Positions 17,082 through 32,708 of a DNA stretch of 34,175 bases are shown here, one piece after another. Origin of the DNA: Armatimonadota bacterium (GTDB lineage: Bacteria > Armatimonadota > Fervidibacteria > Fervidibacterales > Thermosaccharophagaceae); contig JANXAS010000035.1 in NCBI GenBank assembly GCA_025062195.1, forward strand, positions 1-34,175. Reading direction: 5' to 3'. The notes below the pieces were generated by a model. It saw nothing but the letters and a program-made list of their open reading frames with translations, searched no databases and was not told the origin of the DNA. Every line of letters begins with the position of its first letter. Position 1 is the stretch's first letter. The translations under genes were made by a program, and so were the position numbers.

Positions 17082-17246
17082 TTCGGAGGGCAGGGCTACT
17101 GCCATGCCGAAATTCAGCCCCAAAATGGGAAAAATTGTGGCGAAAAATTCGGGGGGCAAGGCTACTATCGAGCCAAAAAGCTTTGTTTTTAAGGTTCGTA
17201 GTTAGCCACAAAGCTGGGGGCGAGGCTACTGCTGAGCCAAAACTTC
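17082..17246 (+). repeat. Family C hairpin repeats (GGGCGAGGCTACTGCCGAGCC type), three degenerate units
   Basis: Motifs of the form GAGGGC(G/A)AGGCTACTGCC(G)AGCC recur at about 17085, 17150 and 17216, each followed by an A-rich stretch. GGCNNGGCT can pair with the following GCC..GCC bases. The last unit (about 17185-17246, period ~62) runs directly into family A element 1, exactly as at 26818 and 27149. Confidence 0.6.
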
Positions 17247-17256
17247 GTTGTTAAGG

Positions 17257-17367
17257 TTCGTAGTTAGCCACGAAGCGAAAGCGTAGTGGCGTCTAATTTG
17301 TTGCTCCACTTTTGTTCTTTGTCCCATTCCTGACGGCACTCTGCTTCGCTCCGTGCCTTACTACGAA
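17257..17367 (+). repeat. Family A palindromic element 1 (111-bp class)
   Basis: The element begins TTCGTAGTTAGCCACGAAGCG and ends with the near-complement GTGCCTTACTACGAA; inner arms GTGGCGTC and GACGGCAC also pair. The core is 111 bp. It carries no coding capacity. Confidence 0.8.
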
Positions 17368-17379
17368 CAAAGCACCAAG

Positions 17380-17476
17380 TTCGTAGTTAGCCACGAAGCG
17401 TTAGCGTAGTGGCGTCAAAAATTGTCTTGTGTTCCATTTTGACGGCACTACGCTTCACTTCGTGCCTTACTACGAA
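17380..17476 (+). repeat. Family A palindromic element 2 (97-bp class)
   Basis: Near-perfect long hairpin: two arms of about 41 bases with few mismatches around a ~16-base centre. Outer TTCGTAGTTAGCCACGAAG pairs with CTTCGTGCCTTACTACGAA; inner AGCGTAGTGGCGTCAAAA pairs with TTTTGACGGCACTACGCT. It lies 12 bases after element 1 in the same orientation. Confidence 0.85.
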
Positions 17477-17500
17477 CAAACCAACAAACTTTCACCACTT

Positions 17501-17560
17501 GGAGGGCGAGGACAATTTTCGTCACTCGGAGGGCGAGGCTTCTGCCGAGCCAAAAAGCTT
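17501..17560 (+). repeat. Family C hairpin repeats, two units
   Basis: TTGGAGGGCGAGGACAATTT followed at once by TCGGAGGGCGAGGCTTCTGCC and GAGCCAAAAAGC. It follows family A element 2 with the same CAACAAACTTTC flank found after element 4 at 27.0 kb. Confidence 0.55.
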
Positions 17561-17607
17561 TTCCACGACGGTCTTTTAACTTCTGCCATCTACAAAGGCA
17601 ACACTGT

Positions 17608-21592: not shown

Positions 21593-21739
21593 TTCTTTAC
21601 TACAAACTTTGTTGACCAGGTTCGTAGTTAGCCACGAAGCGTTAGCAAAGTGGCGTCCTAAATTGTCCCATGTCCCATTTTGACGGGACTGTGCGTTGCT
21701 CCGTGCCTTACTACGAACAACAAGATTTTGAGCAAAGAG
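21593..21739 (+). repeat. Family A palindromic element 3 with long terminal inverted repeats (97-bp core)
   Basis: The core 21621-21717 is 97 bp. The palindrome extends outward: left TTCTTTACTACAAACTTTGTTG pairs imperfectly with right CAACAAGATTTTGAGCAAAGAG, giving a ~147-bp element with nested inverted repeats and no coding capacity. This is the architecture of a MITE. I did not find a clear target-site duplication by eye. Confidence 0.8.
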
Positions 21740-24811: not shown

Positions 24812-24932
24812 GATTAGCAGAAACAGTTAAGAAGCGGCATAGCAAGGTGTAATGACTGCGGGATGGTGAACCTTGCGGAATAGACAAAGCGTAACAAAGC
24901 ATTAGGAGATGAAATGGCAGGAGGTAATAAAG

Positions 24933-26324
24933 ATGCGACAGGACGAATTATACCAACAATTGAGCCGATTTCGGCTCAGAATTCGCAAAGTCCTTTCATG
25001 GCGCTATGCTGCAGTTTGTGGAACAGTTGGTGCTGCAATCGCATTTTTTGCCGACATCGGTGATTGGCGAGGCATATGGACAGTTGAAGTTTATGCACTT
25101 GTAGTGCTCATTGTGGCTGCGATTCTGGTCGGTGTAGCATGGGCATTTTGTCGCCCATTGCCGCTGGGAGTTGTTGCACAACTCGTTGACCGGCGAGCAT
25201 GCTTGAAAGACCGTGTGACAAGTGCTTTGCTTTGCAGGGATAATCCATTTGCAGAAGCTTTGCAAGAGGATGCAATTGCACATCTTGCCCCAGTGTATCC
25301 GTCGCAGCTATTCCGCTTCCGTTTGACGGCATGGCATATGGCAATGATTCTGCTAATTTTTGCCCTGCTTGTTAGCCAGTTTTTGCCGAATTTGCTCTCA
25401 CCCTTTATCGGCTTGGTGCGTGAGGACAGAAAAGAAGCTAAGAAAATGGTGGAGCAAGTCCAACGACTCCTTAAACCCGTCGTTGAACGGGTGAAAGAAA
25501 CGGAGGCAACCGAGTTAGAAAGACAAATTGCAAGGCAGATTCAAGAGCTATACAAGCGTGCACAAAAAGGTAGGTTAAGTAAGAAAGAAGCCATGATAAA
25601 GCTTAACAAGCTCCTTTACGATGCCCAAAAGCTTGAACGGAAAGTCAAGCGTGAAGTCCAACTTGTCTCTGCAAAGGCTATCACCGCTGCCCAATTGCTC
25701 CAGCAACAGTTGAAAAATAAGGCACTTGCATCAAAGATGCATTCACTACAGCCGTTGCTAAAAAGGATTCAGGATTTGGAACACATGCTGCAATCGCGGA
25801 ATTTAACAACGAAGCAAAGGCAGACACTGCAAAGTGAATTGCAAATGCTCCGACGGACGATGGAAATGATGACGCAACCAAGCAACCAAGCTTTAAGGGG
25901 TCAAATTGAGGCAATATCCTCAAAAATTTCGCAGTTGCAACAAATGCTTCAGTCGGGTTTGAATGCTGAGGGGCGTCCGCTAAGTGGGTTTGAAAAGGAA
26001 CTGTTGAAAGAGCAGTTGCAAAGCTTGCAGCAGCAATTGCGTGCTTTACAGCTTTCTAAGGAGGCAAAGGAATTTCTCCGAAAGTTGATTAGCGACCCAA
26101 ACTTCAAAGAGGCAATGAAATTGTTGTCGGAGATGCAAAAGCATCTTTTGGGAGAAATTGGGGCAAAAATTCCGAAAATTTCCCCAGAAGAGTTGGAGAG
26201 GATGGTCAAGGACCTTCAAGAGGCTATTGAAGAATTGGCAAAGCTCTTTGGCGACGACGAAAAAATACGGCAATTGGCGAAACAATTGTTGGATGCTATC
26301 AAAAACTTGAGTGGCTTTGTGTGA
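24933..26324 (+). CDS. DUF4175-like membrane protein with long coiled coil (main part)
   Basis: The 463-aa product has three membrane helices (~24-42, ~53-72, ~133-152) with a conserved-looking VDRRACLKDRVTSALL segment between the second and third. A long cytoplasmic or periplasmic coiled coil (~165-400) rich in Gln, Leu and Lys follows, then a helical end. It resembles DUF4175-type proteins found beside MoxR/DUF58/vWA genes. AGGAGGT (24919-24925) is seven bases before ATG 24933, so the ATG at 24909 is not needed. The TGA at 26322 appears premature: the same frame continues through a glycine-rich linker, a second TGA and a coherent tail to 26750 (see the separate entry and finding). Confidence 0.75.
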   Translation: MRQDELYQQLSRFRLRIRKVLSWRYAAVCGTVGAAIAFFADIGDWRGIWTVEVYALVVLIVAAILVGVAWAFCRPLPLGVVAQLVDRRACLKDRVTSALLCRDNPFAEALQEDAIAHLAPVYPSQLFRFRLTAWHMAMILLIFALLVSQFLPNLLSPFIGLVREDRKEAKKMVEQVQRLLKPVVERVKETEATELERQIARQIQELYKRAQKGRLSKKEAMIKLNKLLYDAQKLERKVKREVQLVSAKAITAAQLLQQQLKNKALASKMHSLQPLLKRIQDLEHMLQSRNLTTKQRQTLQSELQMLRRTMEMMTQPSNQALRGQIEAISSKISQLQQMLQSGLNAEGRPLSGFEKELLKEQLQSLQQQLRALQLSKEAKEFLRKLISDPNFKEAMKLLSEMQKHLLGEIGAKIPKISPEELERMVKDLQEAIEELAKLFGDDEKIRQLAKQLLDAIKNLSGFV

Positions 26325-26750
26325 GAGGGTTCTGGGCGGGGGCACCGCCCGCACTTTGGCTTTGGGTGAATTGGCATAGGTTTTGGAGCCAGGGGTTTTG
26401 GCTCTAAAGGTTTTGGCTCAGGCTTCAGCATTGGTGGTCTTGGTCCGGGGAGAAGCGGCATCACTAATAGTGAATGGGTTGGGCAGCCAGAGGGATTCAA
26501 CATCGGTGAGAAAGTGCACTTAAGGTTTCCAGCAACTGAGAAACCATTATTTGGCTCTCAACCATTGTTGCCGGGTTTGGCAATAGGTGAGGATGTAATG
26601 GCTCCACCAGTGCCAACTGGCTCTGGAATTCCATTGAGCCAAATTTTGCCAGTGTATACCAAAAAAGCCGAAGAAGCCATGAATACACAGACAATTCCGC
26701 CATCAGAGCGTGTCCGTGTTAGACGATATTTTGAGGCATTGCGTAGGTGA
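26325..26750 (+). pseudogene. In-frame continuation of the DUF4175-like gene: Gly-rich linker plus C-terminal tail, split by TGA
   Basis: Frame 0 of the preceding gene continues past TGA 26322-26324: EGSGRGHRPHFGFG, a second TGA (26367-26369), then IGIGFGARGFGSKGFGSGFS, a spacer, and a tail ending IPPSERVRVRRYFEALRR (TGA 26748-26750). Related proteins, as I remember them, end with a glycine-rich linker and an 'IPP..R..VRRYFEAL' tail in one polypeptide, so this is probably the missing C-terminus. The only start codon in the tail is GTG 26514, with a poor GGTGAG three bases away; translation from it would give 78 aa. Alternatives are stop-codon readthrough, a recent nonsense split, or sequencing error. 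Confidence 0.55.
26334..26350 (+). promoter_or_regulatory. GC-rich hairpin nine bases after the TGA
   Basis: GGGCGG-GGGCA-CCGCCC forms a six-base-pair GC stem with a five-base loop, beginning nine bases after TGA 26322-26324. It has no T-run, so it is a poor terminator. Its position would suit a readthrough-stimulating structure or a mere consequence of glycine/arginine codons. Confidence 0.35.
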
Positions 26751-26817
26751 AATAGGTAGTAGTCAAAAGCAGGTGGCTACTGCCACAAAGAAGAAACCGT
26801 TCTTCACTGTAACCTTT

Positions 26818-26880
26818 GTTGGTTAAGGTTTGTAGTTAGCTACAAAGCTGAGGGCGAGGCTACTGCTGAGCCAAAACTTC
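26818..26880 (+). repeat. Family C ~63-bp unit
   Basis: GTTGGTTAAGGTTTGTAGTT, then AGCTACAAAGCTGAGGGCGA, then GGCTACTGCTGAGCCAAAAC. The next copy of the leading GTTGTTAAGG begins 63 bases later at 26881 and runs into family A element 4. Compare 17185-17246 and 27149-27211. Confidence 0.65.
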
Positions 26881-26890
26881 GTTGTTAAGG

Positions 26891-27001
26891 TTCGTAGTTA
26901 GCCACGAAGCGTTAGCGAAGTGGCGTCTAATTTGTTACTTGACTTTTGTTCTTTGTCCCATTCCTGACGGCACTACGCTTAGCTCCGTGCCTTACTACGA
27001 A
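26891..27001 (+). repeat. Family A palindromic element 4 (111-bp class)
   Basis: Same ends as elements 1-3. Its centre (TTTGTTACTTGACTTTTGTT, CTTTGTCCCATTCC) closely matches element 1 at 17257, so these two form the longer, 111-bp class. Confidence 0.8.
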
Positions 27002-27083
27002 CAAAGCAACAAACTTTCGTCATTGGGGTGCAAGGACAATTTTCGTCACTTGAAAGGTGAAGCTACTGCCAAGCCAAAGCTTT

Positions 27084-27211
27084 GTTGGTTAAGGTTCGTA
27101 GTTAGCCAAAAAGCTGGGAGGGTGAGGCTACTGCCGAACAAAAGCTTTGTTGGTTAAGGTTTGTAGTTAGCCACAAAGCTGAGGGCGAGGCTACTGCCGA
27201 GCCAAAACTTC
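27084..27211 (+). repeat. Two tandem family C units (65 and 63 bp)
   Basis: Units start at 27084 and 27149 with GTTGGTTAAGGTTYGTAGTT and each contains the G-rich hairpin core GAGGGYGAGGCTACTGCCGA. A third leading segment at 27212 merges into family A element 5. Confidence 0.65.
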
Positions 27212-27221
27212 GTTGTTAAGG

Positions 27222-27318
27222 TTCGTAGTTAGCCACGAAGCGTTAGCGTAGTGGCGTCCCAAATTGTCTTGTGTTCCATTTTGACGGCACTACGCTTCAC
27301 TTCGTGCCTTACTACGAA
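27222..27318 (+). repeat. Family A palindromic element 5 (97-bp class)
   Basis: Almost identical to element 2 at 17380, including the centre ATTGTCTTGTGTTCCATTTT. The outer end continues to CAACAGATTTTTGATTAAAGAG at about 27348. Confidence 0.85.
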
Positions 27319-27380
27319 CAAAGAAGCAACAGATTTTTGATTAAAGAGCGGCTCAATTTATGAAGGGGTGTGGAATTCAA

Positions 27381-28388
27381 ATGGTAAGTGGCAAAGAGAT
27401 GGCAACATGGTGCCGAGATTTGCTGCGCACTGTTGAGAATGAAATACGAAAAGTTATCGTGGGAATGAATGAAGTCGTTGAGGGCGTGCTTGTGGCATTA
27501 GCAGCTGGTGGGCATGTGCTGCTGGAGGGTGTGCCAGGGTTGGGCAAGACAATGCTTGTTCGGACATTGGCACAGGCGCTTAACCTGAAGTTTTCGCGCA
27601 TTCAGTTTACACCAGACCTTATGCCTGCCGATATTACTGGCACTGATGTCCTTACGGAAACGGAAAGTGGTGAACGGACATTCGTATTTCGTCCCGGACC
27701 AATCTTTGCCAATATCATCTTAGCCGACGAGATTAACCGAGCTACGCCAAAAACACAATCAGCGCTTTTGGAAGCAATGCAAGAGTTCGCTGTTACCGTC
27801 GGTGGAAAACGCTACATTTTGGAGCCGCCATTTTGGGTAATGGCAACACAGAACCCGATTGAAATGGAGGGGACCTATCCACTACCTGAGGCGCAAGTAG
27901 ACCGCTTCTTTTTCAAGCTGCTTGTCCCGTATCCATCTCTTAGCGAGTTGCGTGAAATTGTTGACCGAACGACGGGAGCAGAACTGCCGTATGCATCTCC
28001 TGTTGCTTCAAAGGATGAATTGCTCAAATTACAGCGAATTGTTAGGGATGTGCCTATTGCTGAGCCAGTTCGTGATTACGCCTTGAAAATTGTCTTGGCA
28101 ACGCATCCGCACTCCGAAATGGCACCACCTGATGTCAATCGTTATGTCCGTTACGGCGCCAGCCCAAGAGCTGGGCAAACACTCCTTTTGGCTGGCAAAG
28201 TTTACGCCCTTTTGGATGAGCGTTACAATGTTTCCCGTGAGGACATCAAAAAAGCAGTTAAACCAGCATTGCGCCACCGAATTATCCTGAACTATGAAGC
28301 CGAAGCTGACCAAATTACGACGGATATGCTTCTTGAACGAGTAGTTGAGCATGTGGAACGAACCGAACGAGAGCCAATTGCCGTTTAG
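27381..28388 (+). CDS. MoxR-family AAA+ ATPase
   Basis: MoxR ATPases are chaperone-like AAA+ rings that mature or activate partner vWA proteins, often inserting metal or remodelling complexes at the membrane. The 335-aa protein shows Walker A GVPGLGKT (50-57), Walker B IILADE (112-117) followed by INRATPKTQSALLEAMQE, sensor 1 MATQNPIEMEGTYPLPEAQVDRF (from ~154), and the lid domain with VNRYVRYGASPRAGQTLLLAGK. ATG 27360 is in frame, but AAGGGGTG (27363-27370) lies inside that extension, so ATG 27381 is chosen. It heads the MoxR-DUF58-vWA-BatA series, all on the plus strand. Confidence 0.95.
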   Translation: MVSGKEMATWCRDLLRTVENEIRKVIVGMNEVVEGVLVALAAGGHVLLEGVPGLGKTMLVRTLAQALNLKFSRIQFTPDLMPADITGTDVLTETESGERTFVFRPGPIFANIILADEINRATPKTQSALLEAMQEFAVTVGGKRYILEPPFWVMATQNPIEMEGTYPLPEAQVDRFFFKLLVPYPSLSELREIVDRTTGAELPYASPVASKDELLKLQRIVRDVPIAEPVRDYALKIVLATHPHSEMAPPDVNRYVRYGASPRAGQTLLLAGKVYALLDERYNVSREDIKKAVKPALRHRIILNYEAEADQITTDMLLERVVEHVERTEREPIAV

Positions 28389-28664: not shown

Positions 28665-29576
28665 ATGCTAAAAACGCCACTTCTCTCAATGCCAAAGGTG
28701 AATGTGGCTATGTTAGATGATCAGTTACTGACCCGTTTGGAAAGAATGAGACTTAACCCACGGCGCTTGCATTCTGGCTTGCTTCACGGGGAGAGGATCT
28801 CAAAGAAGAGGGGAATTTCCGTTGAATTTTCCGACTTCCGCCCATACGCCATTGGGGATGATGCTCGTCATCTTGACTGGAAAATCTATGCACGCTTGGA
28901 CAGACCCATCATCAGAACATACAGAGATGAGACTGAATTGCCAGTTTATTTGATGATAGACGCATCAGTATCAATGAATTTTGGCAATCCACCGAAGTGG
29001 AATTTGGCACAGCAATTGGCAGCAGCATTGGGCTACATTGTGCTATGCGGCGGCGATGCGTTATTTCCTATCGCTATTTCGGTGGAGAATCAGCGCTTTA
29101 CTTTCCTGCGTGGAAAAGCAATGTTTTTGCGCCTAATAAATTGGCTGAGAAGCTTGCAGCCGACTGGCAAAGGATTGGCAAGTTACTTGCGCCAATTTGC
29201 GTATGCGGATGTCCCCAAGGGTATGGCGTTGTTGCTTTCTGACGGGTTGGATTCTGAATTCCCAAACGCTTTGCAGCATTTGGCATCACGGGGGCACGAA
29301 GTGTTATTCGTGCATATTTTATCAGATGCCGAATTGGAACCCTCTTTAGAGGGCGATTTGAAACTGCTTGACTGCGAAACTGATGAATCTCTTGATTTAA
29401 CGGCAACAGATGGTGTGATTAGGGATTATATGAGAAATCTTGGCAAGTTTTGCTCACATATTGAGAGCATATGTCGCCGCTCAGGTGGTTGGTGCATTCG
29501 TGTCCGCTCTAATGCTTCGGTTAGTGACATAATCTTCCGTCAACTGCGGCAATTAGGGGTCGTGAAGATGGCATGA
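28665..29576 (+). CDS. DUF58 domain protein (vWA-like fold, MoxR partner)
   Basis: The 303-aa soluble protein carries the DUF58 signature FSDFRPYAIGDDARHLDWKI (55-74) followed by YARLDRPIIRTYRDETE, then a vWA-type segment LMIDASVSMNFG with the D-x-S-x-S metal site (D99, S101, S103), and MALLLSDGLDSE. DUF58 proteins nearly always sit next to MoxR and are thought to be its substrates or adaptors. The start is ATG 28665 with a distant GGAGTG; the true start could be a later Met (MPKVNVAML). The gap to MoxR (276 bases) contains family A element 6; such genes usually abut, so the repeat has probably inserted. Confidence 0.92.
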   Translation: MLKTPLLSMPKVNVAMLDDQLLTRLERMRLNPRRLHSGLLHGERISKKRGISVEFSDFRPYAIGDDARHLDWKIYARLDRPIIRTYRDETELPVYLMIDASVSMNFGNPPKWNLAQQLAAALGYIVLCGGDALFPIAISVENQRFTFLRGKAMFLRLINWLRSLQPTGKGLASYLRQFAYADVPKGMALLLSDGLDSEFPNALQHLASRGHEVLFVHILSDAELEPSLEGDLKLLDCETDESLDLTATDGVIRDYMRNLGKFCSHIESICRRSGGWCIRVRSNASVSDIIFRQLRQLGVVKMA

Positions 29577-29846: not shown

Positions 29847-32708
29847 ATGCGTTTCACCGACCCATTGTGGCTGATAATCTTGCCATTCTTGTTGCTTATG
29901 CTGTGGTGGACTGGCAAGAGAATGCATGGTATTGCTCCATCAAGGAAGCGTTTTGTATTGCTGCTTCGTGGCATTATTTTCACACTTTTAGTCATTGCAC
30001 TGGCTGGAGTTCAAGCTGTCCGAATTCACAGGCGTGTTTGCACGATATTCGTTTTGGATGTTTCTCATAGCATCTCAGAATCCGCAAGGGAAAAGGCGGT
30101 TGAATTCATCTCAAAAGCCGTTAAAAATGCGCAAGATGAAAATAAGTCTGGCATTATTGTCTTCGGTCGTCAACCTATTCCTGAAGTTGCCCCAACACAG
30201 TTACGCTCTTTACCACCGCTATATGCTGCTCCCGACAAATCCGCTACAGATATAGCTTCGGCATTAAGACTTGCTATGGCACTTTTCCCAGATGGCTATG
30301 CCAAGCGCATCGTTTTGTTCTCGGACGGAAACGAAACCGATGGCGATGCTCAAAGTGTAGCAACTGTGGCAAGAACGGAGAATGTAACAATTGATGTAGT
30401 TCCGTTGCCTATTGAGAAAAACAAAGAGGTTTTAATAACCGATGTGATAATGCCATCAGAAGCCAAGATAGGTCAGCCTTTTCCCGTCCGCATAATCATT
30501 GAAGCAACGGATGATGCAGAAGGTGTCCTGCGAATTGATAAAGATGGAGTTCCAGTCAAAGAATTGGCAGTGCGATTGGTTAAGGGTAAGAATGCAATTG
30601 TGGAGAGTTTAAGGGTTGATGAGGCAGGGATAAGTCGTTTTCGCATAGCTTTAGAGGCAGCTCCTGACAGTGACCCACGAAACAATATCGGCATTGGATT
30701 GGTTTCTGTGAAAGGCAAACCAAAGGTTCTTTTGGCAGATAGTGAGCCAGATTCAGCAGATGCGTTGGTAAGGGCGTTGAAAGCCAATAATTTAGAAGTC
30801 GTTAAATGTCCTGAAGGAGGCTTGCCAACAAGGGTGGAAGAGTGGGGGCAATATGATGGAATTGTTTTGTCAGATTTCCCCGCTTATGCTATGTCAGAGC
30901 ATCAAATGAGGGTTATCCGAAGCGCTGTCAGGGATGCAGGTGTTGGTTTTTTGATGATTGGTGGCGAAAAGTCTTACCAGTCTGGTGGCTATTATGGCAC
31001 GCCAATTGCCGAGGTTTTGCCGGTTGATTTGGATGTGAGACAGCGAAAGCTCTTCCCTGCTGCAACAATTGTCATAATCATGGATACTTCTGGCAGTATG
31101 TCTGTGACAGAGGGCGGGGTTCAAAAGGTTCACCTGGCAGCGAGAGCAGCAATTGAAACTCTTAAAATGCTCCGCCCAATTGACCGTTTCGGTGTGATAG
31201 TTAGTGGTGAAGGCGCAGATTGGCTCTCGCCAATACGCCCAGCAGGTGAACGAGAACGGATCATAGAAATGATTAGCCGGATTTATGCCAGTGGTGGTGG
31301 GATTTACTGCCGTCCGAGTTTGTCGTTGGCGGCGAAGGCGATTGTTGCCGAAACGACGACAGTTCGCCACATCATTTTTCTGGCTGATACAGACGACTGT
31401 GACGAGCAAGAAGGTTGTTTTGAAATTGCACGGCAATTGCGCTCAATAGGTGTGACTATAACGGCGGTTGGGTTTGGGAGACCAAATGGTATCCATACCC
31501 CATTTCTTAAGCAACTTGCACAAATTGGTGGCGGTAACTTCTATATTACCCGATTCATGCGAGATTTGCCGAAGCTATTCACGGCAGATGTGAGCATAAT
31601 GACACGGTCAGCCATAGTGGAAGAGACTTTTCTTCCCAAGATCGTTGGGCATGATGAGACGCTTCGTGGAATTGACTGGCAAAAAGTGCCCCCATTACTG
31701 GCATACAACCTGACTTCCGACAAGCCATTGGCTCGCACATTGATGCGAACTGACAGAGATGATCCTCTACTGGCGACTTGGCAGTTTGGGCTTGGGACTT
31801 CAATTGCGTTCACTTCCGATGCCAAGCCGAAATGGGCGAGACAATGGATAATGTGGGACGATTTTTCAAAATTTTGGGCAAATGTTGTCCGATCATCACT
31901 CAGGAAAGCTGCAAAGGCAAAATATATGCTTGCAACTAAGGTTAATCGCGGACAGGCTGTCATTGAATTAGAAGCCTACACAACTGAAGGGGAGCCAATT
32001 AACCTATTGCAGCCAGAAGTGAAGGTTGTGACTCCGAACGGCGAATGTAAAAGTTTGACACTTCAACAGGAAGGGTTGGGACGATATAAAGGGCAAGTCC
32101 CCGTCACAGAAACCGGCATTTATTTGGTTACAGTGGCGGAAAACAAAGGGATGGGAAAGGCGCAAGTTTATACAACTGGTTTTGCGATGCCATACCCGGC
32201 GGAATATCGGTTTGTTCGTGCAAACATACCGTTATTGAGGAAATTGGCTGAATTAACGGGCGGTAAATTCAATCCCAAACCGGAAGAGGTATTTGACTTG
32301 CCAAAAAATCCTGGGGAATCTTTGGACGATTTGTGGCAGTTATTCGCTTGGTTAGCATTGGCATTGCTTCTGATGGATATAGCGGCGAGGAGATTGGCAA
32401 TAAGCCTTTCGGATATATTCTCGGGATTTTTTGGGAAAATTTTGGGAATTTTTCTCGGGGCAGCCGCAGGAAAGCCAGAAAAAGCATTGGAGGAAAAAAG
32501 AAGGTTGCTTGCAGCAAAACAAAGGGCTAAACAACGAGAAGCTGTCAAAACTTTGACAAAACCAATTTTGTCTCCCAAGGAAATGGAGCAGCCATCCGAG
32601 CCATCGCAATTAGCCGAGCCAACGAAGGAAAAGATGCCATCACCAACTGCCGGTGCCTCGTCAAAAACGCTTTCACGGCTGTTGGAAGTGAAACGACGAA
32701 AGAAATAA
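29847..32708 (+). CDS. Large membrane protein with two vWA domains and a GATase-like domain
   Basis: The 953-aa protein has two N-terminal membrane helices (~7-22 and ~36-56). vWA domain 1 has D71-V-S-H-S75, T134 in KSATDIASAL and FSDGNETDG. A beta-sandwich and a GATase-like domain follow (~290-400: KPKVLLADSEPDSADALVRAL, IVLSDFPAYAM, GFLMIGGEKSYQSGGYYGTP). vWA domain 2 has D413-T-S-G-S417 and LADTDDCDEQEG; the usual Thr of the second metal motif is replaced within GGGIYCRPSL. A beta domain, one more helix (~828-845) and a basic Lys/Glu-rich tail complete it. vWA domains with intact D-x-S-x-S bind Mg2+ or Mn2+ and partner proteins; this is a likely MoxR client in the inner membrane. Start ATG 29847 is preceded by GGGGCGG. 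Confidence 0.88.
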   Translation: MRFTDPLWLIILPFLLLMLWWTGKRMHGIAPSRKRFVLLLRGIIFTLLVIALAGVQAVRIHRRVCTIFVLDVSHSISESAREKAVEFISKAVKNAQDENKSGIIVFGRQPIPEVAPTQLRSLPPLYAAPDKSATDIASALRLAMALFPDGYAKRIVLFSDGNETDGDAQSVATVARTENVTIDVVPLPIEKNKEVLITDVIMPSEAKIGQPFPVRIIIEATDDAEGVLRIDKDGVPVKELAVRLVKGKNAIVESLRVDEAGISRFRIALEAAPDSDPRNNIGIGLVSVKGKPKVLLADSEPDSADALVRALKANNLEVVKCPEGGLPTRVEEWGQYDGIVLSDFPAYAMSEHQMRVIRSAVRDAGVGFLMIGGEKSYQSGGYYGTPIAEVLPVDLDVRQRKLFPAATIVIIMDTSGSMSVTEGGVQKVHLAARAAIETLKMLRPIDRFGVIVSGEGADWLSPIRPAGERERIIEMISRIYASGGGIYCRPSLSLAAKAIVAETTTVRHIIFLADTDDCDEQEGCFEIARQLRSIGVTITAVGFGRPNGIHTPFLKQLAQIGGGNFYITRFMRDLPKLFTADVSIMTRSAIVEETFLPKIVGHDETLRGIDWQKVPPLLAYNLTSDKPLARTLMRTDRDDPLLATWQFGLGTSIAFTSDAKPKWARQWIMWDDFSKFWANVVRSSLRKAAKAKYMLATKVNRGQAVIELEAYTTEGEPINLLQPEVKVVTPNGECKSLTLQQEGLGRYKGQVPVTETGIYLVTVAENKGMGKAQVYTTGFAMPYPAEYRFVRANIPLLRKLAELTGGKFNPKPEEVFDLPKNPGESLDDLWQLFAWLALALLLMDIAARRLAISLSDIFSGFFGKILGIFLGAAAGKPEKALEEKRRLLAAKQRAKQREAVKTLTKPILSPKEMEQPSEPSQLAEPTKEKMPSPTAGASSKTLSRLLEVKRRKK

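Follow-up and report, generated by a model that had tools for sequence, protein, structure and literature searches.

A predicted selenoprotein family encoded beside a MoxR gene in many members of one bacterial phylum, probably the Armatimonadota

The gene at positions 24909–26750 of the window, which is the whole stretch of 34,175 nucleotides that was analysed, encodes a selenoprotein with a probability of about 0.95: UGA 26322 and UGA 26367 are read as selenocysteine (Sec) and UGA 26748 is the stop codon. Comparative genomics makes the prediction of Sec decoding at both UGAs near certain. The product is therefore a membrane-anchored coiled-coil protein of 613 residues carrying Sec472 and Sec487, not one of 471 residues. 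Sec insertion explains the in-frame TGAs, the hairpins that follow them, the Cys found in homologues and the presence of a Sec machinery. The features are as follows.

24909–26750, + strand: complete selenoprotein gene, start ATG 24909, 613 amino acids including two Sec
26322–26324, + strand: first TGA codon, Sec472, shared with G001 and G003 of the same order; 36 genomes have a corresponding TGA, and Cys occurs here among homologues
26333–26351, + strand: SECIS-type hairpin 1 (UGGGCGG-GGGCA-CCGCCCG), spaced 15 nt from the UGA, with an energy of -13.4 kcal/mol
26367–26369, + strand: second TGA codon, Sec487, kept in G001 and G003
About 26378–26412, + strand: SECIS-type hairpin 2 (14 bp with a GGGUU loop), spaced 23 nt from the UGA, with an energy of -15.0 kcal/mol
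26634–26747, + strand: conserved C-terminal tail of two short helices, in which E588, P597, V604, Y607 and F608 are invariant
26748–26750, + strand: true stop codon TGA; the structure 3' of it (-4.1 kcal/mol) is not of SECIS grade
27360–28388, + strand: moxR-type AAA+ ATPase gene, conserved neighbour
28665–29576, + strand: gene for a DUF58 protein, neighbour
29847–32708, + strand: gene for a VWA-domain membrane protein, neighbour

The two in-frame TGAs and the terminal TGA had been pointed out in a first-pass annotation, and reading in the frame of ATG 24909 confirms their coordinates. Selenocysteine insertion was absent from the four options offered there, none of which is the answer. In the mechanism proposed here, a SECIS hairpin just 3' of each UGA would direct Sec insertion, SelB and tRNA-Sec would decode UGA 26322 and UGA 26367 as selenocysteine, and translation would end at the ordinary stop UGA 26748, which is without a SECIS-type hairpin downstream.

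Hairpins were scanned with the bacterial SECIS model, whose published spacing is 16–37 nt (PMC13188914), here slightly widened to 13–37 nt; to pass the cut-off, a hairpin had to have a G-led loop and reach -7.5 kcal/mol. In energy, stem and loop both window sites fit the model. Hairpin 2 fits in full, and the spacing of hairpin 1, at 15, is one short of the published range. The 6-bp GC stem described in the first-pass annotation is indeed present (GGGCGG at 26334–26339 with CCGCCC at 26345–26350, beginning nine bases 3' of the first TGA), and its energy beats every control codon of the gene; the second hairpin had been missed. At the place of hairpin 2 the relatives have a hairpin of different sequence. 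Across the family 35 of 39 UGAs are followed by a hairpin passing the cut-off, four missing -7.5, and six of 46 terminal TGAs reach this value. The same proportion (35/39) come in the top 10% within the gene they belong to; the p value of 2.5e-28 from a KS comparison of ranks with a uniform distribution is a description and not a probability, as the 39 sites are not phylogenetically independent. Recurring loops are GGUCA, GGUCU, GUCU, GGU and GGUC. GC-rich genes give some background, since 39 of 117 Cys codons in Cys-form homologues also have a hairpin within the cut-off. In genus g6, the Cys form of genome G021 keeps the peptide ACALDARQW and has a weak hairpin (-4.9); the hairpins of its seven Sec relatives range from -10.7 to -23.1.

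A profile search of 291 genomes of the phylum detected homologues in 156. Frames were then examined in 93 genomes; 36 of them, spread over 16 families, carry either a single TGA or two in frame within the matching Gly-rich segment (G234 being counted from the profile-search table). The usual context is A-G-G-T-TGA-x-S-x-G; some TGA homologues have a UxxC motif (UGSC, URAC, UATC) and some a Cys 6–10 residues further on. The same site is occupied by UGA or Cys in homologues: an alignment of the first 21 sequences places Cys in the TGA column of eight members that lack the TGA. Internal stops are nearly all TGA, with one TAA and no TAG among the matches listed. A contig search with the single protein recovered only one distant locus, in a Fimbriimonadaceae metagenome-assembled genome; the naming of the phylum as probably Armatimonadota goes back to this one match. 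In genome G055 (L084, G055:C75) two TGAs lie only seven codons apart (GGTU-NSPGGTU), with a hairpin after each.

The window's own genome contains selA, selB, selC and selD: the matches score 581 bits for selA, 421.8 bits for selB and 364 bits for selD, and the tRNA-Sec scores 73.8 bits and has the anticodon TCA (UCA in RNA). The selD gene (L047 1501-2436, G000:C140) has an in-frame TGA of its own at the catalytic SG-U-xxK, read SG-TGA-ASK, the known Sec site. The predicted selenoprotein SelD thus provides an internal control for the decoding of UGA as Sec in this genome. Formate dehydrogenase is the commonest bacterial selenoprotein; the best match to its alpha subunit here (L145, G000:C93:71403-73394) is without an in-frame TGA and appears from its sequence not to be a Sec form, so that the Sec machinery may be maintained for only a few genes, the window gene and selD among them. 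Within the 36 TGA-bearing genomes selB is above the cut-off in 32, and selA with tRNA-Sec in a further two (G233 and G126) brings the total to 34; searches of the remaining G003 (61% complete) and G024 (88%) found no Sec machinery. The association between TGA and selB (Fisher p 0.002) is supporting evidence only, because its significance is lost when phylogenetically independent pairs are compared (median p 0.375). A selB-family match in another genome (G290:C31:2536-3663) has one in-frame TGA of its own.

Programmed readthrough yielding short and long forms had been among the earlier options; in this reading, or in a leaky version of it, a near-cognate tRNA (Trp or other) would suppress UGA. 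A conserved in-frame TGA with downstream structure is also compatible with this process, and a product cut short at either UGA would retain the membrane part and the coiled coil. However, the residue at the site in TGA-free homologues is often Cys, not Trp or Gly, the hairpins have the spacing and the G-led loop expected of a bacterial SECIS, and the genome has a Sec machinery: all three point to selenocysteine, and readthrough is very improbable. Some truncated product arising from failed Sec insertion is possible.

The fate of the coding sequence around the TGAs was followed by using the read-through translation as a query against 41 genomes drawn from its order and phylum. G001 and G003, which belong to the same order and are about 57–60% identical, have two TGAs at exactly the same columns as the window gene, an agreement far beyond coincidence. 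The Gly/Phe-rich continuation of the frame past the TGAs, described earlier, is confirmed. Synonymous sites are saturated (about 0.66–0.88 different), and the nonsynonymous difference is 0.21–0.28 before the first TGA and 0.28–0.33 after the second. The 14 codons between the TGAs are the least different stretch (nonsynonymous 0–0.10), a value confounded by the first SECIS stem, which falls within these codons. Conserved coding sequence thus flanks the in-frame UGAs on either side, and purifying selection persists downstream of both. The assembly is a draft in 170 contigs, a circumstance that would suit the earlier suggestions of recent nonsense mutations or consensus errors; yet the identical two codons recur in highly diverged genomes that were assembled separately, the sequence 3' of them is still under selection and internal stops are almost only TGA. 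Retention of the TGAs together with selection at saturated synonymous distance means that mutation, pseudogene formation or assembly error cannot explain the pattern, and the chance that one of them lies behind it is negligible. Translation of the tail at 26634–26747 requires decoding of both UGAs. A separate tail gene starting at GTG 26514, a codon that is in frame, is just as hard to credit, as the coiled coil and tail form a single open frame in TGA-free homologues and the inter-TGA segment, the most conserved piece in close relatives, lies upstream of that GTG. A UGA-reassigned genetic code, judged unlikely at the outset, is rejected because the gene's own UGA 26748 aligns with the C-terminal ends of homologues stopped by TAA or TAG.

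The selenoprotein comprises membrane helices near the N-terminus, a long coiled coil, the Gly-rich Sec segment and a conserved C-terminal helical hairpin. The hydrophobic helices lie near residues 33–54, 61–81 and 141–162; with these helices and the positive-inside rule, both the coiled coil and the Sec tail would be expected outside the cytoplasm. AlphaFold2 models the 613 residues with a mean pLDDT of 73.7: the long helices of the N-terminal part are confident, segment 470–573 with both Sec is of low confidence (below 50 in the Sec region) and two short helices at 576–612 carry the invariant residues. The model suggests that the Gly-rich segment is probably disordered. A Foldseek search of the PDB with the predicted structure returned no match at E 0.001 and therefore no fold-based function. 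Members of DUF4175 combine N-terminal membrane helices with a long helical region, and the general architecture of the window protein is alike; the label DUF4175-like was nevertheless not borne out, as the protein has no Pfam match at E 0.01. Searches of Pfam and NCBIfam gave no match for it, and no model common to two of the 21 members.

Homologues of the window gene mostly lie directly upstream of moxR, which is found downstream at 26 of the 36 loci whose sequence extends far enough for a test, the exceptions being mainly from genus g6. Across many bacteria of a single phylum, probably the Armatimonadota, the selenoprotein family thus adjoins a MoxR gene. The MoxR, DUF58 and VWA proteins encoded by the window's neighbours recall the MoxR AAA+/VWA pairs RavA-ViaA and NorQ-NorD and the MoxR-DUF58-VWA clusters; no selenoprotein partner of any of these was found in the literature searched. 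Related palindromic repeat elements (GTTCGTAGTTAGCCACGAAGC ... GCTCCGTGCCTTACTACGAAC) are present in three intergenic regions (17083–17561, 21620–21718 and 26783–27329), and one set fills the interval that separates the selenoprotein gene from moxR.

The window gene shares with bacterial SelB/SECIS selenoproteins such as SelD, FdhA and GrdA the in-frame UGA, a hairpin about 15–37 nt on, Cys homologues and the presence of selA, selB, selC and selD in the genome. Most characterised bacterial selenoproteins have a thioredoxin-like fold (PMC13188914), whereas the Sec residues here are predicted to lie in a low-confidence Gly-rich segment of a coiled-coil membrane protein. None of the 119 prokaryotic selenoprotein families listed in 2026 (PMC13188914) fits when compared by name or motif, and the unnamed deep-Sep families come from Desulfosarcina and Desulfosediminicola (PMC12013277). 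A search of mainly open-access journal papers found nothing that connects selenoproteins to DUF4175 or to Armatimonadota; its one match for Armatimonadetes concerns Planctomycetes. The decoding mechanism is canonical, and none of the sources consulted lists this protein family among the selenoproteins, so that in this respect it is new.

Sec472 and Sec487, borne on a mobile Gly-rich segment, could form a redox-active selenol pair: a diselenide in the window protein, and a Sec-Cys pair in relatives with UxxC or U..C. The gene order suggests that the protein would serve as a redox-active tail acting with the MoxR-DUF58-VWA module. That an extracytoplasmic diselenide, or a metal site including the two His between the Sec residues, works as a redox switch of this module is a tentative and rather unlikely proposal; the conserved His could act as ligands, or their conservation could simply be a by-product of the SECIS stem. 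If true, the redox-switch reading would describe the first selenium-dependent MoxR chaperone system.

The family is predicted to be phylum-wide, and reading its TGA as stop truncates the proteins just before the conserved C-terminal helices. With at least 12–15 changes between Sec and non-Sec states among 91 sequences, it offers a useful case for the study of Sec/Cys exchange. MoxR/VWA chaperone clusters are widespread and poorly understood: the selenoprotein would link selenium to them and suggest a testable chemical activity for these clusters.
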